DNA from: Bacteroidota bacterium
GTDB taxonomy: Bacteria > Bacteroidota > Bacteroidia > Chitinophagales > Chitinophagaceae
Reading direction: 5' to 3'
Assembly (NCBI GenBank): GCA_947454745.1
Contig: CANGMV010000002.1
Span: forward strand, 1 to 18,798
Length of the DNA stretch: 18,798 nucleotides
The notes under the pieces are model-generated. The model was given only the letters and a program-made list of their open reading frames with translations. It searched no databases and was not told where the DNA came from. The first letter of the stretch is position 1. Each line of letters starts with the position of its first letter. Below are positions 2,198-18,798 of the stretch, piece by piece. The translations under genes and the position numbers were made by a program.

Positions 2198-3832
2198 TTA
2201 AAATTGAATATCAAATTTCAATGCTTCACCCGCTCTTTTAATAATTAATATTGTTTTATCTCCTTTTTTAAATTTACCTAGAGCTTGCATATAACCCATC
2301 ACATCAATTAATTTATACTCCCCCAATTGCACCAAAACATCGGCAGCCTTCAAGCCAATTTTCTCTCCTAATTTACCTTGGCTAGTGCCCTCAATCCTAA
2401 CCCCAGTGCCGGTAAACGCATAATCGGGCATTACACCCAAACTCACTGTGAACTTAGTGCTCTTACCCATACTTTGTTCACGTGTTTTTAAAAAATCAAG
2501 CTTGCCATAACGGTCAGTGGTCTTGATAATATTTTGTACCAAACGTACAATATCCTTCTCCCCCACATAATTAATTTTATCCCAATCGTCGGTTGCTTTA
2601 TGATAATCGGAATGACTTCCTGTAAACATAAATAATACAGGCATGTCCTTGCGATAAAAACTTGCATGGTCACTAGGTCCTGTTCCAGCACTATCATAAT
2701 GTGTAATTAAACTAGTAGGCGTTTGGGATAAAACCTCCGCCCATTTGCTTGAAGTACCAAAACCACCAATGGTTAATTTACGTGCAGTGTCATACCTGCC
2801 CACCATATCCAAGTTAATCATATAATTAAAATTGCCTTTGTAGGTAGGGTGATCTAGCCAATATTTACTGCCCAATAAGCCCAATTCCTCACCCGAAAAA
2901 TGTATTATTAAGTAGTTGTTATTTTTAGGTGCTTTTTTAAGTAATGATTTTGCAATTTCAATCAAAGCCGCAGTACCACTGGCATTGTCATCGGCTCCAT
3001 TATGAATAAAGTTGTTTAAATCCAATCCGTGTTTGTCCTCATTGTAACCTAAATGATCCAAGTGCGCCCCAATAACAATAGTGTTAGTAGCATGGTTATT
3101 AATAAAGCCAACAACATTGTGAGCTGTTCTGGTAGGATGTTCAAATTGGACATTCGCATCAATAGTATAAGTGCCTAGCTCATCGCTAAAATATTTTGCA
3201 TACCCTTGTTTTGTAAAATAAACAACAGGCAACGCTAAGGACTTTGCAGTATCATATTTATTAAACTGAATATTGTCCACCAAGCTTCCGCTATTGTGTA
3301 AAAATAATGCGGTAGCTCCTTTGTGCTTAAGCTCTAATGCATTGGCAGTAAGCCATTCATTCATGTCAAAATGTGGATTGCTTGTGTTTTCCTCTAACAC
3401 TTCATTTACATCTTTAAACCAAACTTGTTTTGATTCGTTTAATGCAATAGAAGCTCGAGAACTAAAAGTATTGATGCCACTATTTGAAAGTGCAAAAAAA
3501 TCACTGTCTATAATTGCTGCTTGATTATTGATTTTTACAAAAGCAGTTGTCGCAAATTTCTTGCCTTCATCAATTGGAAAATTTTGAATAAATCCTTGTT
3601 CACCCATGGGTTCAATTTGTAAACCTTGGTATTGTGCAATCACATAGTCCACTGCTTTTTGTTCTCCACTATTACCAGCACGGCGACCCTCTAATTCATC
3701 ACTTGCTAAAAACTGAATATGGCTTTTTAATTTTTGAATTAACACTTTATCGGCATGATTCAATTTTTGAGCCATCACACCCAATGGGGCTAACACTACC
3801 AACAGTACTAATATTCTACGCATTGCATACAT
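2198..3832 (-). CDS. Secreted M28-family zinc aminopeptidase with C-terminal PDZ domain
   Basis: A predicted exported metallopeptidase of 544 residues from the ATG at 3832. Residues 1-21 are a signal peptide with a hydrophobic core (ILVLLVVLAPLGV) and a V-M-A cleavage site. A PA-like insert covers about residues 135-230. The M28 zinc-binding set is complete: His257 and Asp259 in GAHLDHLG, Asp281 in GADDNASG, Glu315-Glu316 in SGEELGLLGS, Asp342 in NLDMVGR and His411 in SDYHKATD. A PDZ domain fills about residues 461-542, as in other Bacteroidota M28-PDZ proteins. A TTG at 3844 would add four residues but lies in the -7 promoter element, so the ATG at 3832 (or 3823) is preferred. It probably trims peptides in the periplasm or outside the cell; the substrate is unknown. 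The IPExxxVDY gene follows. Confidence 0.9.
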   Translation of the reverse strand: MYAMRRILVLLVVLAPLGVMAQKLNHADKVLIQKLKSHIQFLASDELEGRRAGNSGEQKAVDYVIAQYQGLQIEPMGEQGFIQNFPIDEGKKFATTAFVKINNQAAIIDSDFFALSNSGINTFSSRASIALNESKQVWFKDVNEVLEENTSNPHFDMNEWLTANALELKHKGATALFLHNSGSLVDNIQFNKYDTAKSLALPVVYFTKQGYAKYFSDELGTYTIDANVQFEHPTRTAHNVVGFINNHATNTIVIGAHLDHLGYNEDKHGLDLNNFIHNGADDNASGTAALIEIAKSLLKKAPKNNNYLIIHFSGEELGLLGSKYWLDHPTYKGNFNYMINLDMVGRYDTARKLTIGGFGTSSKWAEVLSQTPTSLITHYDSAGTGPSDHASFYRKDMPVLFMFTGSHSDYHKATDDWDKINYVGEKDIVRLVQNIIKTTDRYGKLDFLKTREQSMGKSTKFTVSLGVMPDYAFTGTGVRIEGTSQGKLGEKIGLKAADVLVQLGEYKLIDVMGYMQALGKFKKGDKTILIIKRAGEALKFDIQF

Positions 3833-3956: not shown

Positions 3957-6065
3957 ATGAAAGCCGGCATACATATTGCTTTAGTGGGAAACCCCAATTG
4001 TGGAAAGAGTTCGCTGTTCAATGCCTTAACCGGGTTGAATCAAAAAGTGGGCAATTTTCCAGGGGTGACGGTCGACAAAAAAACCGGACAGCTTACTTTA
4101 GGCGGGCATCCTGCTACACTTATTGATTTGCCAGGCACTTACAGCTTCTATCCAAAACGAGAGGATGAATGGGTAGCCTATAAAGTATTGATGGGCGTAG
4201 ATTTGGAAATGCATACCGATGTAATTTTATTGGTAGCCGATGCAAGCAACTTAAAAAGAAACTTACTTTTTTGTAGTCAAATTATTGATTTGAAAAAGCC
4301 AGTGGTATTGGCTTTGACCATGAATGACTTAGCGGCAAAAAAAGGAATTAAAATAGATATAGCAGGACTGCAAGCCGATTTAGGAATTCCAGTTGTGGCT
4401 ATTGATGCAAGAAAAAATAAAGGCTTAACTGAATTAAAGCAAGCGCTCATTGGCATCATTGAAACGCCAAGATCCAGAAATCAAGAAAGTTTTATTGACA
4501 ATAAAAATTTAGCGCCGCTTGCTATTGATGCTTTTAAAGAATTGTTTCCAACACAAAGTGATTATGCAGCATTGCATTATTTAATGCACCACGAAGCATT
4601 TCCATTGGAAAGTGAAATGCAGGAAAAGATTGAACAAATAGAAATTGACAATCAATTTAACCATACTAAAACACAGGCGCAGGAAATATTACAACGCTAC
4701 GGACGTATTCAAGAAATAATGAAACATAGGGTTTCTGAACCCGATCCTGCAGCCAAGAAAAAAAGAACAGACATTCTCGATAATATATTCTTACATCGTA
4801 TTGGAGGTTATGCAATTTTATTATTTGTATTGTTTGTTTTATTTCAGTCGGTATTTTGGATGGCAAAATATCCAATGGATGGTATTGAATGGGTATTCAC
4901 GAATGTAACAAGTTACTTAAATCAAGTTTTACCAAACGCATGGTGGGAGGACTTGTTAGTGAATGGTATTGTTGCCGGCCTGGGTGGCATTTTTGTTTTC
5001 ATTCCTCAAATTATGATTTTGTTTGGACTCATTACCATACTTGAGGATACTGGGTACATGGCCCGTATTAGCTTTTTAAGTGACAAGCTTATGCGTAAAG
5101 TAGGATTAAATGGAAAGAGTGTAATGCCTATGATTAGTGGATTTGCTTGTGCAGTTCCTGCTATCATGAGCGCAAGGAATATTGAAAATAAAAAAGAAAG
5201 GTTGCTGACTATAATGGTAACACCATTTATGAGTTGCAGTGCAAGACTTCCTGTTTATACCATTTTAATTTCACTTGTGATTGATAAAAAAATATACTTT
5301 GGATTTTTAAGCTTGCAAGGTTTGGTAATGATGGGCTTGTATTTATTAGGAATTGTAATGGCATTACTAGCAAGCATGGTATTAAAATGGTTTATACGCA
5401 TCAAAGAGAAAAGTTATTTTATTTTAGAGTTGCCGGTTTATCGTGCACCACGTTGGAAAAATGTAGGTACGACCATGGTACAAAAAGCAAAAATATTTGT
5501 GACCGATGCGGGAAAAGTAATTATGGTCATTAGCTTGTTATTATGGTTTTTAAGTAGTTATGGGCCAAGCCAACAAATGAATAGAGTGGAACAGGCTCAT
5601 ACGCAACAAGTGGCTGCACATCCTGAACAACAAGCACATTTAGATAAAATATACCATACCCAAAAACTAGAACATTCTTATGCGGGCGTATTAGGAAAAA
5701 CAATCGAACCTGCTATTGCTCCATTAGGATTTGATTGGAAAATGGGTATTGCAATTATAACTTCTTTTGCAGCAAGAGAAGTGTTTGTGGGCACGATGGC
5801 GACTTTGTACAGTGTAGAAGCTGCCGACAATAGTTCACTTCGCGAAAAACTCCAAGCTGCAAAAAGACCAGACGGCACTCCAGTATACAGCTTTGCCGCA
5901 GCCCTTTCATTAATGATATTTTATGTATTGGCTATGCAATGTATGAGTACACTTGCTGTAGTAAAAAGAGAAACCCAAAGTTGGAAATGGCCCACCATCC
6001 AATTTTTCATGATGACGGGTCTTGCTTATATTATGAGCTGGGTGGTGTATACAATTGCCAACTAG
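3957..6065 (+). CDS. feoB: Ferrous iron transport protein B
   Basis: FeoB is the inner-membrane channel-like protein that imports Fe(II). The N-terminal G domain has G1 GNPNCGKS at residues 11-18, the switch-I FPGVTVD with Thr38, and G3 DLPG at 57-60. The expected G4 motif NxxD reads TMND at 121-124. After a helical linker, the membrane part begins near residue 280 and has the two inverted gate repeats: SGFACAVPAIMSAR at 395-408 with FMSCSARLPVY at 424-434, then AAREVFVG at 605-612 with LAMQCMSTLAV at 658-668. The cysteines lining the proposed pore (398, 427, 662) are present. At 702 residues the length is normal. ATG at 3957 is preferred over TTG at 3948, which sits in the promoter element. 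No feoA is fused or adjacent. It converges on bcp. Confidence 0.96.
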   Translation: MKAGIHIALVGNPNCGKSSLFNALTGLNQKVGNFPGVTVDKKTGQLTLGGHPATLIDLPGTYSFYPKREDEWVAYKVLMGVDLEMHTDVILLVADASNLKRNLLFCSQIIDLKKPVVLALTMNDLAAKKGIKIDIAGLQADLGIPVVAIDARKNKGLTELKQALIGIIETPRSRNQESFIDNKNLAPLAIDAFKELFPTQSDYAALHYLMHHEAFPLESEMQEKIEQIEIDNQFNHTKTQAQEILQRYGRIQEIMKHRVSEPDPAAKKKRTDILDNIFLHRIGGYAILLFVLFVLFQSVFWMAKYPMDGIEWVFTNVTSYLNQVLPNAWWEDLLVNGIVAGLGGIFVFIPQIMILFGLITILEDTGYMARISFLSDKLMRKVGLNGKSVMPMISGFACAVPAIMSARNIENKKERLLTIMVTPFMSCSARLPVYTILISLVIDKKIYFGFLSLQGLVMMGLYLLGIVMALLASMVLKWFIRIKEKSYFILELPVYRAPRWKNVGTTMVQKAKIFVTDAGKVIMVISLLLWFLSSYGPSQQMNRVEQAHTQQVAAHPEQQAHLDKIYHTQKLEHSYAGVLGKTIEPAIAPLGFDWKMGIAIITSFAAREVFVGTMATLYSVEAADNSSLREKLQAAKRPDGTPVYSFAAALSLMIFYVLAMQCMSTLAVVKRETQSWKWPTIQFFMMTGLAYIMSWVVYTIAN

Positions 6066-6076
6066 CAATAACAATA

Positions 6077-6541
6077 CTACCAACCGCTAATCGCTAAAAT
6101 TTCAGCAGTGTGGTCTTTTGTATCAGGCTTTTCGATAATATGTTGCACAATACCCGCTTCGTCAATTAAAAACGTAGTACGCGTAGTGCCCATATAAGTG
6201 CGGCCCATAAACTTTTTCTGACCCCATAAGTTGTATTTATCTACAATTTTCTTGTCTTCGTCGGCAATCAAGGAAAAAGGCAGGTCGTATTTAGCAATGA
6301 ATTTTTCGTGTGAAGCCACTGAATCCACGCTAACGCCTAACACTTGTAAGCCTTTCTTCATCAATTTCTTATAATTATCTCTAAGATTGCATGCCTGCGC
6401 GGTACAACCTGGTGTATCATCCTTTGGATAGAAGTATAAAACTACTTTTTGACCTTTAAAATCGGCCAAAGCCACATTTTTCCCGTGCTGATCTACCCCT
6501 TTAAACGCTGGAGCTTTAGCCCCTTCTTTTATTACTGCCAT
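6077..6541 (-). CDS. bcp: Thioredoxin-dependent peroxiredoxin, BCP/PrxQ type
   Basis: A 154-residue cytoplasmic peroxidase that reduces hydrogen peroxide and organic hydroperoxides using thioredoxin. The peroxidatic cysteine is Cys46 in YPKDDTPGCT, and the resolving cysteine is Cys51, five residues on, the spacing of atypical 2-Cys PrxQ/BCP enzymes (E. coli Cys45/Cys50). The conserved VVLYFYPKD strand and the later TTFLIDE segment are also present. ATG at 6541 gives MAVIKEGAKAPAF, the usual family start; the reading frame stays open upstream to 6619 but that extension is not family-like and lies in the carB promoter region. The gene is divergent from carB (115 bp between starts) and converges on feoB with an 11-bp gap. 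Confidence 0.94.
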   Translation of the reverse strand: MAVIKEGAKAPAFKGVDQHGKNVALADFKGQKVVLYFYPKDDTPGCTAQACNLRDNYKKLMKKGLQVLGVSVDSVASHEKFIAKYDLPFSLIADEDKKIVDKYNLWGQKKFMGRTYMGTTRTTFLIDEAGIVQHIIEKPDTKDHTAEILAISGW

Positions 6542-17983: not shown

Positions 17984-18472
17984 CTAAACAATTTTAACGT
18001 TACGCGAAAAACTTTCTTCCAATGAAATTAAAGTTTCGGTACGTTCAATGCCTTTAATTTTTTGCAACTCGTCGTGTAATACAAAACGTAATTGTTGAAT
18101 ATCCTTACAAACAATCTCCACAAACATGCTATAGTTTCCTGTTGTATAATTTACACGCACAACTTGTGGAATTGCTTTTAATGCTTGTGCCACGGTATCA
18201 TACATCGAACTCTTTTCCAAGTAAATACCAATGAATGCAATAATATCATAGCCCAATACTTTTAAATCTACAGCTAGTCTCTTCCCTTGAACAATACCCA
18301 ACTCCTCCAATTTCTTAATGCGCACGTGAATGGTACCGCCCGATACAAAAAACTGCTTACCCAGGTCGGCATAGGAAACCTCAGCATCCTGCATCATGGC
18401 CTGAATAATTTGCAAATCCAGCTTATCGAGGCTTTTGTCAATGTTTAATTTAGGGGTAATTTTAGGCTCCAT
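17984..18472 (-). CDS. Lrp/AsnC-family transcriptional regulator
   Basis: A 162-residue Lrp-like protein. The N-terminal HTH_AsnC domain covers about residues 15-75 (LDKLDLQIIQAMMQDAEVSY, then ADLGKQFFVSGGTIHVRIKK, with the LEELGIVQGKR wing). The C-terminal RAM/AsnC ligand-binding domain covers about 78-155 and has the expected GYDIIAFIGIYLE strand and VVRVNYTTGNYSMFVEIVCKD core. Such proteins form octamers and usually sense amino acids. The first 14 residues are an extra hydrophilic tail. No amino-acid gene is adjacent. It is divergent from the structured RNA at 18633, sharing an AT-rich region of about 110 bp (18473-18582) that could hold its own binding sites. No TAnnTTTG element was found for this gene. 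Confidence 0.93.
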   Translation of the reverse strand: MEPKITPKLNIDKSLDKLDLQIIQAMMQDAEVSYADLGKQFFVSGGTIHVRIKKLEELGIVQGKRLAVDLKVLGYDIIAFIGIYLEKSSMYDTVAQALKAIPQVVRVNYTTGNYSMFVEIVCKDIQQLRFVLHDELQKIKGIERTETLISLEESFSRNVKIV

Positions 18473-18545
18473 AATTTATATATTTTTAAATAATTTGCTA
18501 ATTTATTAACAATATTCTATATTTTAAAATAAATACTTAAATTAT

Positions 18546-18576
18546 TTGCAACATATGTGCCAATACCTTAGTTTTG
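18546..18576 (+). promoter_or_regulatory. Strong promoter in front of the tRNA-like RNA
   Basis: TTG at 18546-18548 (within TTTG), a 20-nt spacer and TAGTTTTG at 18569-18576 match the -33/-7 consensus fully. Transcription should start near 18581-18584 and run into the RNA. No protein-coding start follows in a usable frame. Confidence 0.7.
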
Positions 18577-18586
18577 ATATATCAAA

Positions 18587-18613
18587 TGAGAGGAATCACA
18601 CCGAAACCGCTCA
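18587..18613 (+). other. Leader hairpin ahead of the tRNA-like RNA
   Basis: TGAGAGG (18587-18593) pairs with CCGCTCA (18607-18613), with one A-G mismatch and a 13-nt loop. It begins about 4-6 nt after the predicted transcription start and ends 19 nt before the acceptor stem. It may be part of the RNA or a processed leader. Confidence 0.4.
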
Positions 18614-18632
18614 AATGGTAAGTTCTAAATAC

Positions 18633-18795
18633 TGTGGGGTGATGAAATCTTGGCAGACATGCCCCCTTGTCTCGGGGGTGAGGATAACGGGATAAATATA
18701 GCATAGAGCCGTCTAGCAATAGGCGACCAGGGTCGACCACTGAACTTTGTGCTACAACTAACTGCCTCATGGAGGTTCGATCCCTCCCCCTACAG
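18633..18795 (+). ncRNA. Unrecognised class II (Leu-like) tRNA-like RNA with an 81-nt insert in the variable arm
   Basis: The stretch folds as a tRNA cloverleaf. The acceptor TGTGGGG (18633-18639) pairs with CCCTACA (18788-18794), seven pairs including one G-T. A Leu-like D arm follows: stem ATG/CAT at 18642-18644/18658-18660, with a GG and AGA in the loop. An anticodon-like arm has stem CCCCC/GGGGG (18662-18666/18674-18678) and loop TTGTCTC. The variable arm stem TGAGG/CCTCA is at 18679-18683/18765-18769. The T arm is GGAGG/CCTCC (18771-18775/18783-18787) with a canonical TTCGATC loop. Between the variable-stem strands lie 81 nt instead of a small loop. The formal anticodon would be GTC with a T at position 37, unlike any class II tRNA. 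The 3' end reads G-CAA, so CCA is not encoded. It may be a tRNA-derived RNA or a decayed tRNA. Confidence 0.55.
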
Positions 18796-18798
18796 CAA

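Follow-up and report, generated by a model that had tools for sequence, protein, structure and literature searches.

Near its end, at positions 18633-18795, the window (the whole 18,798-nucleotide stretch of DNA analysed) encodes an RNA that folds completely as a tRNA and has a structured variable arm of 81 nt, as the sequence-only reading had observed. This RNA belongs to what is, close to certainly, a real and widespread tRNA-derived family; it is apparently undescribed, and widespread in Bacteroidota and their phages. No description of it was found in listings of PMC papers. On the evidence of sequence, the family is not an ordinary decoding tRNA. Its best-supported reading is that of an Asp-charged GatCAB substrate, and we consider it probable that this tRNA does not decode but is dedicated to asparagine synthesis of the tRNA-dependent kind, being charged with Asp, amidated, and placed under AsnC control. 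The features of the window are as follows, with the basis of each in brackets.

17984..18472, minus strand: divergent AsnC-like regulator of the Lrp/AsnC family, 162 aa (profile and PDB comparisons)
18545..18548, plus strand: putative -33 box TTTG (sequence; Bacteroidetes promoter consensus)
18569..18576, plus strand: putative -7 box TAGTTTTG (TAnnTTTG), 20 nt downstream of the -33 box (sequence; relatives of the genus)
18577..18632, plus strand: probable 5' leader of about 55 nt, presumably removed by RNase P (relatives)
18633..18795, plus strand: tRNA-like RNA, its mature part running from U1 to discriminator G73 (relatives, covariation)
18633..18639, plus strand: 5' strand of the acceptor stem, TGTGGGG (alignment of relatives)
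18642..18660, plus strand: D arm of Leu type, 3-bp stem ATG/CAT (18642-18644 / 18658-18660), GG retained (alignment, tRNA-Leu comparison)
18662..18678, plus strand: anticodon arm CCCCC-TTGTCTC-GGGGG, 5-bp stem (sequence, alignment)
18667..18673, plus strand: anticodon loop TTGTCTC, with G34 U35 C36 at 18669-18671, U37 at 18672 and C38 at 18673
18680..18768, plus strand: variable arm, base stem GAGG/CCTC (18680-18683 / 18765-18768) (compensatory changes)
18688..18690 / 18762..18764, plus strand: second stem of the variable arm, CGG/CTG (compensatory changes)
18691..18761, plus strand: insert in the variable arm (relatives, covariation)
18691..18696 / 18758..18761, plus strand: conserved internal loop of the insert, GATAAA / CTAA
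18699..18708 / 18745..18754, plus strand: 10-bp helix of the insert
18710..18725, plus strand: hairpin of the insert with a GCAA loop
18733..18743, plus strand: hairpin of the insert, TCG-ACCAC-TGA
18771..18787, plus strand: T arm GGAGG-TTCGATC-CCTCC, 5-bp stem (sequence, alignment)
18788..18796, plus strand: 3' strand of the acceptor, CCCTACA, with G73 (18795) and an encoded C74 (18796), CCA not encoded (row filter count)

The acceptor stem has 7 bp, one G-U among them, the cloverleaf keeps the canonical D/T elbow (G18 G19, T-loop TTC.A) in the alignment of relatives, and a variable-arm base of 4 + 3 bp encloses the insert. Fold energy alone is unremarkable in the window (z -1.63; 10 of 200 shuffles fold equally well or better), and the proof of structure is therefore taken from relatives. 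ARAGORN reports no tRNA in the window, and Rfam 15 matches no family at gathering scores, a permissive search returning a single match at E 9.6; by this check, which the sequence-only reading had proposed along with homologues and covariation, the RNA falls into no Rfam family. That reading's exclusion of tmRNA, RNase P RNA and tRNA-Sec holds as well, with no ARAGORN or Rfam match and no such features (no tag frame features in the case of tmRNA), and a group I intron is rejected on the same lack of features and of an Rfam match.

A DNA search found the RNA in 35 of 60 relatives, and a covariance model built from 25 genus-level sequences matches 253 of the 396 genomes of the order, with one to five matches per genome, some of them tandem. 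Strong matches (E 5.7e-21 or better, plus G395 at 7.3e-11, whose sequence was inspected) are present in 239 of the 396 and supply the homologues that had been sought. In a sample of the phylum the model matches 104 of 395 genomes, with a listed match of at least 109 nt in 40; those 72-87 nt long (E as low as 2.4e-12) were set aside as having ordinary tRNA length. One RNA-bearing family (f68) belongs to another class. In the alignment of 25 relatives, standard pairs fill 99.1% of pair cells, and 66 cells show double changes versus 18.4 in shuffles. Across 91 distinct rows from several families, 97.5% of pairs are standard and double-change cells number 481 versus 121.6, a count reached by 0 of 500 shuffles; this alignment was fitted to the structure and hence leans that way, and sliding it by 1-3 columns leaves 44-56% paired. 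Compensatory changes back the nine helices, among them the two stems of the variable arm, the insert's long helix and a small hairpin. Relatives and covariation thereby bear out the tRNA-like RNA with all arms and the giant structured variable arm that had been drawn from one sequence; the Leu-like body also stands, its D arm and variable-arm frame matching tRNA-Leu, and so does the odd anticodon loop TTGTCTC with its pyrimidine at 37, confirmed in the sequence.

A pattern scan of named genomes returned at least 120 matches, and the covariance model confirms 80 of 80 among the matches listed. Their hosts, as given by the record names, are Chitinophaga, Pedobacter, Mucilaginibacter, Algoriphagus, Dyadobacter, Spirosoma, Saprospiraceae and other Bacteroidota, the exceptions to Bacteroidota names among the 80 being an Ignavibacteriales MAG (L166) and another MAG (L215). 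The Ignavibacteriales-labelled MAG carries a 111-nt form (3130-3240) and is either outside the usual hosts or misbinned.

Conservation was counted on the distinct full-length rows that the covariance model found, 89 in all; the model comes from genus-level sequences, and very deviant members would be missed in these counts. Sets A3 and A4, found by a pattern that contains GTCYC, did not enter the anticodon-loop counts for that reason. U1, G2, U35, C36, C38, C71, A72 and G73 are each present in 89/89 rows, and G34 in 87/89, the two other loops having U34 or C34. The pairs U1-A72, G2-C71 and U3-A70 are constant (89/89), as are U1, G2 and U3 of the acceptor 5' strand in the 89 rows with letters there, and pairs further down the acceptor covary freely. 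U1-A72 is also present in 67/67 phage copies. C74 is encoded after G73 in 258/258 filtered rows; ordinary neighbouring tRNA genes show the same 3' end, with CCA mostly unencoded.

The bacterial Asp identity set comprises G73, G10, G34, U35, C36 and C38, with position 10 a minor determinant (PMC9976931). The RNA has G34, U35, C36, C38 and G73 of this set; G10 occurs in only 6/89 rows, and the G1-C72 that is normal for bacterial tRNA-Asp and that AspRS uses for placing the 3' end (same source) is not found. In its place stands U1-A72 (89/89), the pair by which bacterial GatCAB recognises tRNA-Asn and tRNA-Gln and which tRNA-Asp avoids through G1-C72 (PMC4206432 and PMC9976931). The RNA is a hybrid in its sequence identity, combining AspRS determinants and the GatCAB signal in one molecule. 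With both sets of features it could receive Asp even from an AspRS that refuses tRNA-Asn, and could next be amidated. We considered tRNA-Asn as a decider, the expectation being a lack of U1-A72 in the RNA-bearing genomes, but U1-A72 occurs in both groups and decides nothing. Since bacterial tRNA-Asn also carries this pair (32/32 genes found), the RNA need not be the sole GatCAB substrate; the ordinary tRNA-Asn genes found in phages have G1-C72 in 7/7 cases (L291, L294, L299, L300, L311, L337 and L346), whereas the phage copies of the RNA keep U1-A72.

Position 33 is U in 74 of the 89 rows, C in 7, A in 7 and G in 1, so that U33 is lost in 15; position 37 is U in 84 and C in 5, with A37 in 0/89, and position 32 also varies. 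Purine 37 occurs in 0/89 distinct rows (G37 was seen in four Mucilaginibacter-type rows), and the canonical decoding combination of U33 with a purine at 37 is not a property of the family. We know of few, if any, elongator tRNAs that tolerate a lost U33 together with a non-A37. Decoding by the RNA would place Asn at Asp codons, which would explain the decay of its decoding features.

The presence of GatCAB, scored by GatB, tracks the RNA. Order-wide, GatB is found in 232 of the 239 strong-RNA genomes; in 56 genomes GatB is present but no RNA is matched, and both are absent from 87 (Fisher p 1e-38, uncorrected for kinship, with 14 weaker RNA matches left out of the table). At least two of the 56 lack a match merely through a contig ending inside the RNA. 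All seven RNA genomes without a GatB match have at least 290 contigs, and five of them are in assemblies of at least 350 contigs or below 70% completeness. RNA and GatB switch together within genera g27 (G106, G192, G233 versus G247, G305), g31 (G143 versus G428), g50 (G245 versus G309, G323) and g28 (G283, G373, G416, G418 versus G117, G267, G420); G018, of the same genus, and G495 are discordant.

We also compared a panel of 80 genomes, in which close relatives are included and are not independent. It holds 44 RNA-bearing genomes, hand-picked among well-assembled matches, and 36 RNA-lacking ones: 17 of the 20 order genomes listed without a match, 16 of the 18 same-class genomes listed without one in the phylum sample, and 3 from the 60-relative search (G176 and G405 were dropped, their contigs ending inside the RNA, and G038 was left out). 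AsnRS is present in 80/80. GatB is found in 44/44 RNA-bearing versus 3/36 RNA-lacking genomes (G018, G465, G495). With the G299 protein as query and E 1e-60 as threshold, housekeeping AsnB is found in 0/44 versus 15/36, the match in G477 being just 40% identical and three matches listing internal stops, and AsnA above the cut-off in 1/44 (G093) versus 6/36. A protein above the TIGR01536 asparagine synthase cut-off occurs in 36 of the 44 RNA-bearing genomes, mostly exceeding 590 residues; these long proteins are presumably enzymes of the polysaccharide-locus type. The other eight have none above the cut-off, and five of these (G131, G016, G331, G212, G215) have none better than 1e-13, which leaves the GatCAB route as their only recognisable asparagine source among the families searched. 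Neither AsnA nor housekeeping AsnB is found in 16 of the 36 RNA-lacking genomes, and 14 of the 16 are without GatB too; loss of the RNA is therefore not always matched by a synthetase.

The divergent neighbour, which the sequence-only reading had named lrp, appears nearer to AsnC than to Lrp. Its best model is NCBIfam AsnC (160 bits, below the cut-off of 227), and comparison with the PDB gives the AsnC structure 2cg4 at 9.2e-35 versus Lrp at 1.4e-10. Of the 80 named bacterial loci listed, 51 have a divergent AsnC-like gene no more than 1.5 kb upstream of the RNA, and at least five of the remaining 29 have less than 300 nt of DNA on that side. Among 32 separately fetched bacterial loci, 20 have such a gene, at a distance of about 117-267 nt. 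The RNA does not adjoin such a gene in f18, f19 and part of f28, and none was found beside it in the 80 listed viral loci. Four genomes (G247, G299, G305, G428) have a close AsnC-like gene but show no RNA in the stretch read upstream of it. None of the four has GatB; two have AsnB instead and two AsnA.

The claim of an own promoter is likewise sustained by the putative boxes: TTTG at 18545 and TAGTTTTG at 18569 fit the Bacteroidetes promoter consensus, and the -7 box region is largely similar in many relatives of the genus. No terminator is visible in the window because the contig ends at 18798, just past the RNA; most relatives having downstream sequence show a hairpin and T-run 3' of it. Contigs often stop inside or beside the RNA (the window at 18798; L129 and L132; contig ends of G023, G030 and G031), and tandem RNA copies breaking assemblies are perhaps the cause.

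The same pattern returned at least 120 matches in IMG/VR, and the model confirms 80 of 80 viral contigs among those listed; these contigs are predicted viruses, some of which may be host DNA, and the copies in L301 and L330 are cut by contig ends. A blastn search of the RNA against annotated phage and plasmid collections gave no match, though the IMG/VR contigs carry it. A second viral scan, using a pattern outside the loop, found 19 contigs, several of them near-identical; the loop is visible in 18 and reads GUCUC in all. One neighbour is common to 30 of the 80 listed viral loci, and the one member tested is a terminase large subunit by PHROGs. Several phage copies lie inside arrays of 14-25 ordinary tRNAs, and some are only 4-9 nt from ordinary tRNA genes (L299, L349, L303). 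Ordinary tRNA-Asp(gtc) accompanies the RNA in six phage loci (L283, L291, L299, L327, L337, L346), and tmRNA in 4 of 30 RNA-bearing loci scanned (L299, L320, L337, L346; also L347), within an array of at least 24 genes or beside a smaller set. An extra hairpin-like insertion is seen in the D loop of the phage copies L278, L284, L289, L294, L299, L346 and L347, and the phage tRNA array of L291 includes three odd tRNA-Leu-like matches of 124-182 nt with large inserts (4211-4392, 4533-4678 and 4976-5099).

In the mechanism that we propose, the RNA would be trimmed and given CCA like a tRNA (the encoded C74 and the phage copies lying close to tRNA genes would fit this), AspRS would charge it with Asp, and GatCAB would amidate Asp-RNA to Asn-RNA. 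The lost U33 of many members, the non-A37 and the big variable arm would keep Asn-RNA off Asp codons and so prevent mistranslation. Asn would then be released or handed on, its leaving the RNA being the weakest step; the AsnC-like protein would tune RNA output to asparagine, and phages would carry the RNA gene as they do tRNAs and tmRNA. It is likely that the RNA serves to make free asparagine, the release step being conjectural. The large variable arm might hinder AspRS, which would count against this explanation. So do the scarcity of G10 and the missing G1-C72, the TIGR01536 proteins of most RNA-bearing panel genomes, the RNA-lacking genomes with no synthetase, the genomes in which GatB and the RNA occur apart, the loci with no AsnC-like neighbour, and the neighbour's sub-threshold AsnC score. 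In a broader proposal a tRNA has become the RNA cofactor of enzymes for amino-acid biosynthesis: in many Bacteroidota, AspRS, the RNA and GatCAB would jointly act as asparagine synthetase, subject to feedback through a regulator of AsnC type, and phages would hold their own copy. For this we find the balance even.

The RNA could also be charged with Asp and amidated by GatCAB, with Asn-RNA donating to a lipid, a peptide or a protein N-terminus or feeding a sensor, and with no free asparagine made. The same identity and GatB evidence fits, no Asn-releasing activity has been identified, and special tRNAs with non-ribosomal uses exist, which gives precedent. Such a donor is nevertheless unlikely: none of the 44 RNA-bearing panel genomes has housekeeping AsnB and 43 of them have no AsnA, the AsnC-like neighbour points to asparagine supply, and phages would hardly be in need of it. 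The decoy or regulator first envisaged retains a small share of probability as an uncharged regulatory RNA, its tRNA fold lending stability, its invariant loop UCYC binding a target, and its expression under AsnC-like control. The invariance of loop positions 35-38, the divergent regulator gene and the up to five matches per genome, as in sRNA gene families, would agree with this, but it explains less than an Asp/Asn carrier and seems improbable, as it does not account for the invariant U1-A72 and G73, the C74 of 258/258 rows, the GatB link or the placement within phage tRNA arrays. The first interpretation is partly supported; the AspRS set with G73, the GatCAB signal U1-A72, the AsnC-like neighbour and the tracking with GatCAB had escaped it. 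It is very improbable that the RNA is a tRNA-Asp variant that decodes and has an enlarged variable arm, or that it is a recoding tRNA. The kept G34 U35 C36 would suit this, as would the ARAGORN calls of tRNA-Asp(gtc) for six of the seven shortest phage forms tested, but against it stand the loss of U33 in 15/89 rows, A37 in 0/89, U1-A72 in place of G1-C72, and the ordinary tRNA-Asp(gtc) that RNA-bearing phages also have. Hardly credible is a Ser- or Leu-accepting class II relative with an irrelevant anticodon: the D arm and variable-arm frame are Leu-like, and SerRS would be suited by G73 combined with a large variable arm, but Leu requires A73 (both from PMC9976931) where the family has G73 in 89/89 rows, and neither enzyme accounts for the invariant loop or the GatB link.

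The RNA shares G34 U35 C36 C38 and G73 with tRNA-Asp, the family loop CUGUCUC differing from the tRNA-Asp loop CUGUCAC (L204) at position 37 only. It departs from tRNA-Asp in having U1-A72 for G1-C72, a pyrimidine at 37, an unfixed U33, a class II variable arm with an insert, and a Leu-like D arm. In its D arm and variable-arm frame it is nearly identical to tRNA-Leu(UAA) (for example the tRNA-Leu of L347), which is by sequence the probable ancestor of its body, whereas it has G73 and not A73, a replaced anticodon arm, and a variable-arm insert of up to about 110 nt. The staphylococcal tRNA-Gly for cell-wall synthesis is a non-proteogenic tRNA and is likewise specialised outside the ribosome, but it involves another amino acid and other enzymes, has ordinary size, and has no GatCAB link. 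In E. coli, asnC and asnA are divergent genes. AsnC there activates asnA (asparagine synthetase A) and is damped by asparagine, as stated in PMC8707732; here an AsnC-type gene is similarly divergent from a would-be asparagine-making unit, with the RNA gene replacing asnA. Known tRNA-dependent asparagine synthesis employs AspRS and GatCAB on tRNA-Asn (PMC4206432), and the same enzymes and U1-A72 signal would serve the RNA. In that system a non-discriminating AspRS puts Asp on a tRNA-Asn that decodes normally, whereas here the RNA is separate and apparently unfit for decoding; as it carries the Asp anticodon, even a discriminating AspRS could charge it.

Under the asparagine-synthesis reading, the amidation chemistry would thus be of a known kind, and the novelty would lie in a carrier that is dedicated to the task, does not decode, and has a domain and a regulator of its own. 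If the reading is true, a tRNA has evolved away from decoding into an RNA carrier for the making of an amino acid, which matches early-life models that imagine tRNA-bound amino-acid synthesis. It would also offer an answer to the puzzle, raised in PMC4206432, of why some bacteria with AsnRS but without asparagine synthetase retain GatCAB. The finding adds an RNA family spread across many Bacteroidota genomes and phages.

RNA length is 111-200 nt in the bacterial set and goes down to 91 nt in phages, a range that suggests a constant tRNA body and a modular insert. The shortest phage forms (91-96 nt) are without the insert, and the earlier idea of an insert-carrying tRNA is, anatomically, correct. 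The variable-arm domain may be a new functional module for ribosome exclusion, complex scaffolding or Asn release. In one copy (L030 / L122, in G034) about 48 nt of insert are missing, some of the variable-arm base among them, through a deletion or an assembly error. In another genome (G080, locus L127), two 68-nt insert-only repeats of the variable-arm domain (5683-5750 and 6001-6068) lie downstream of a full RNA at 6209-6368.
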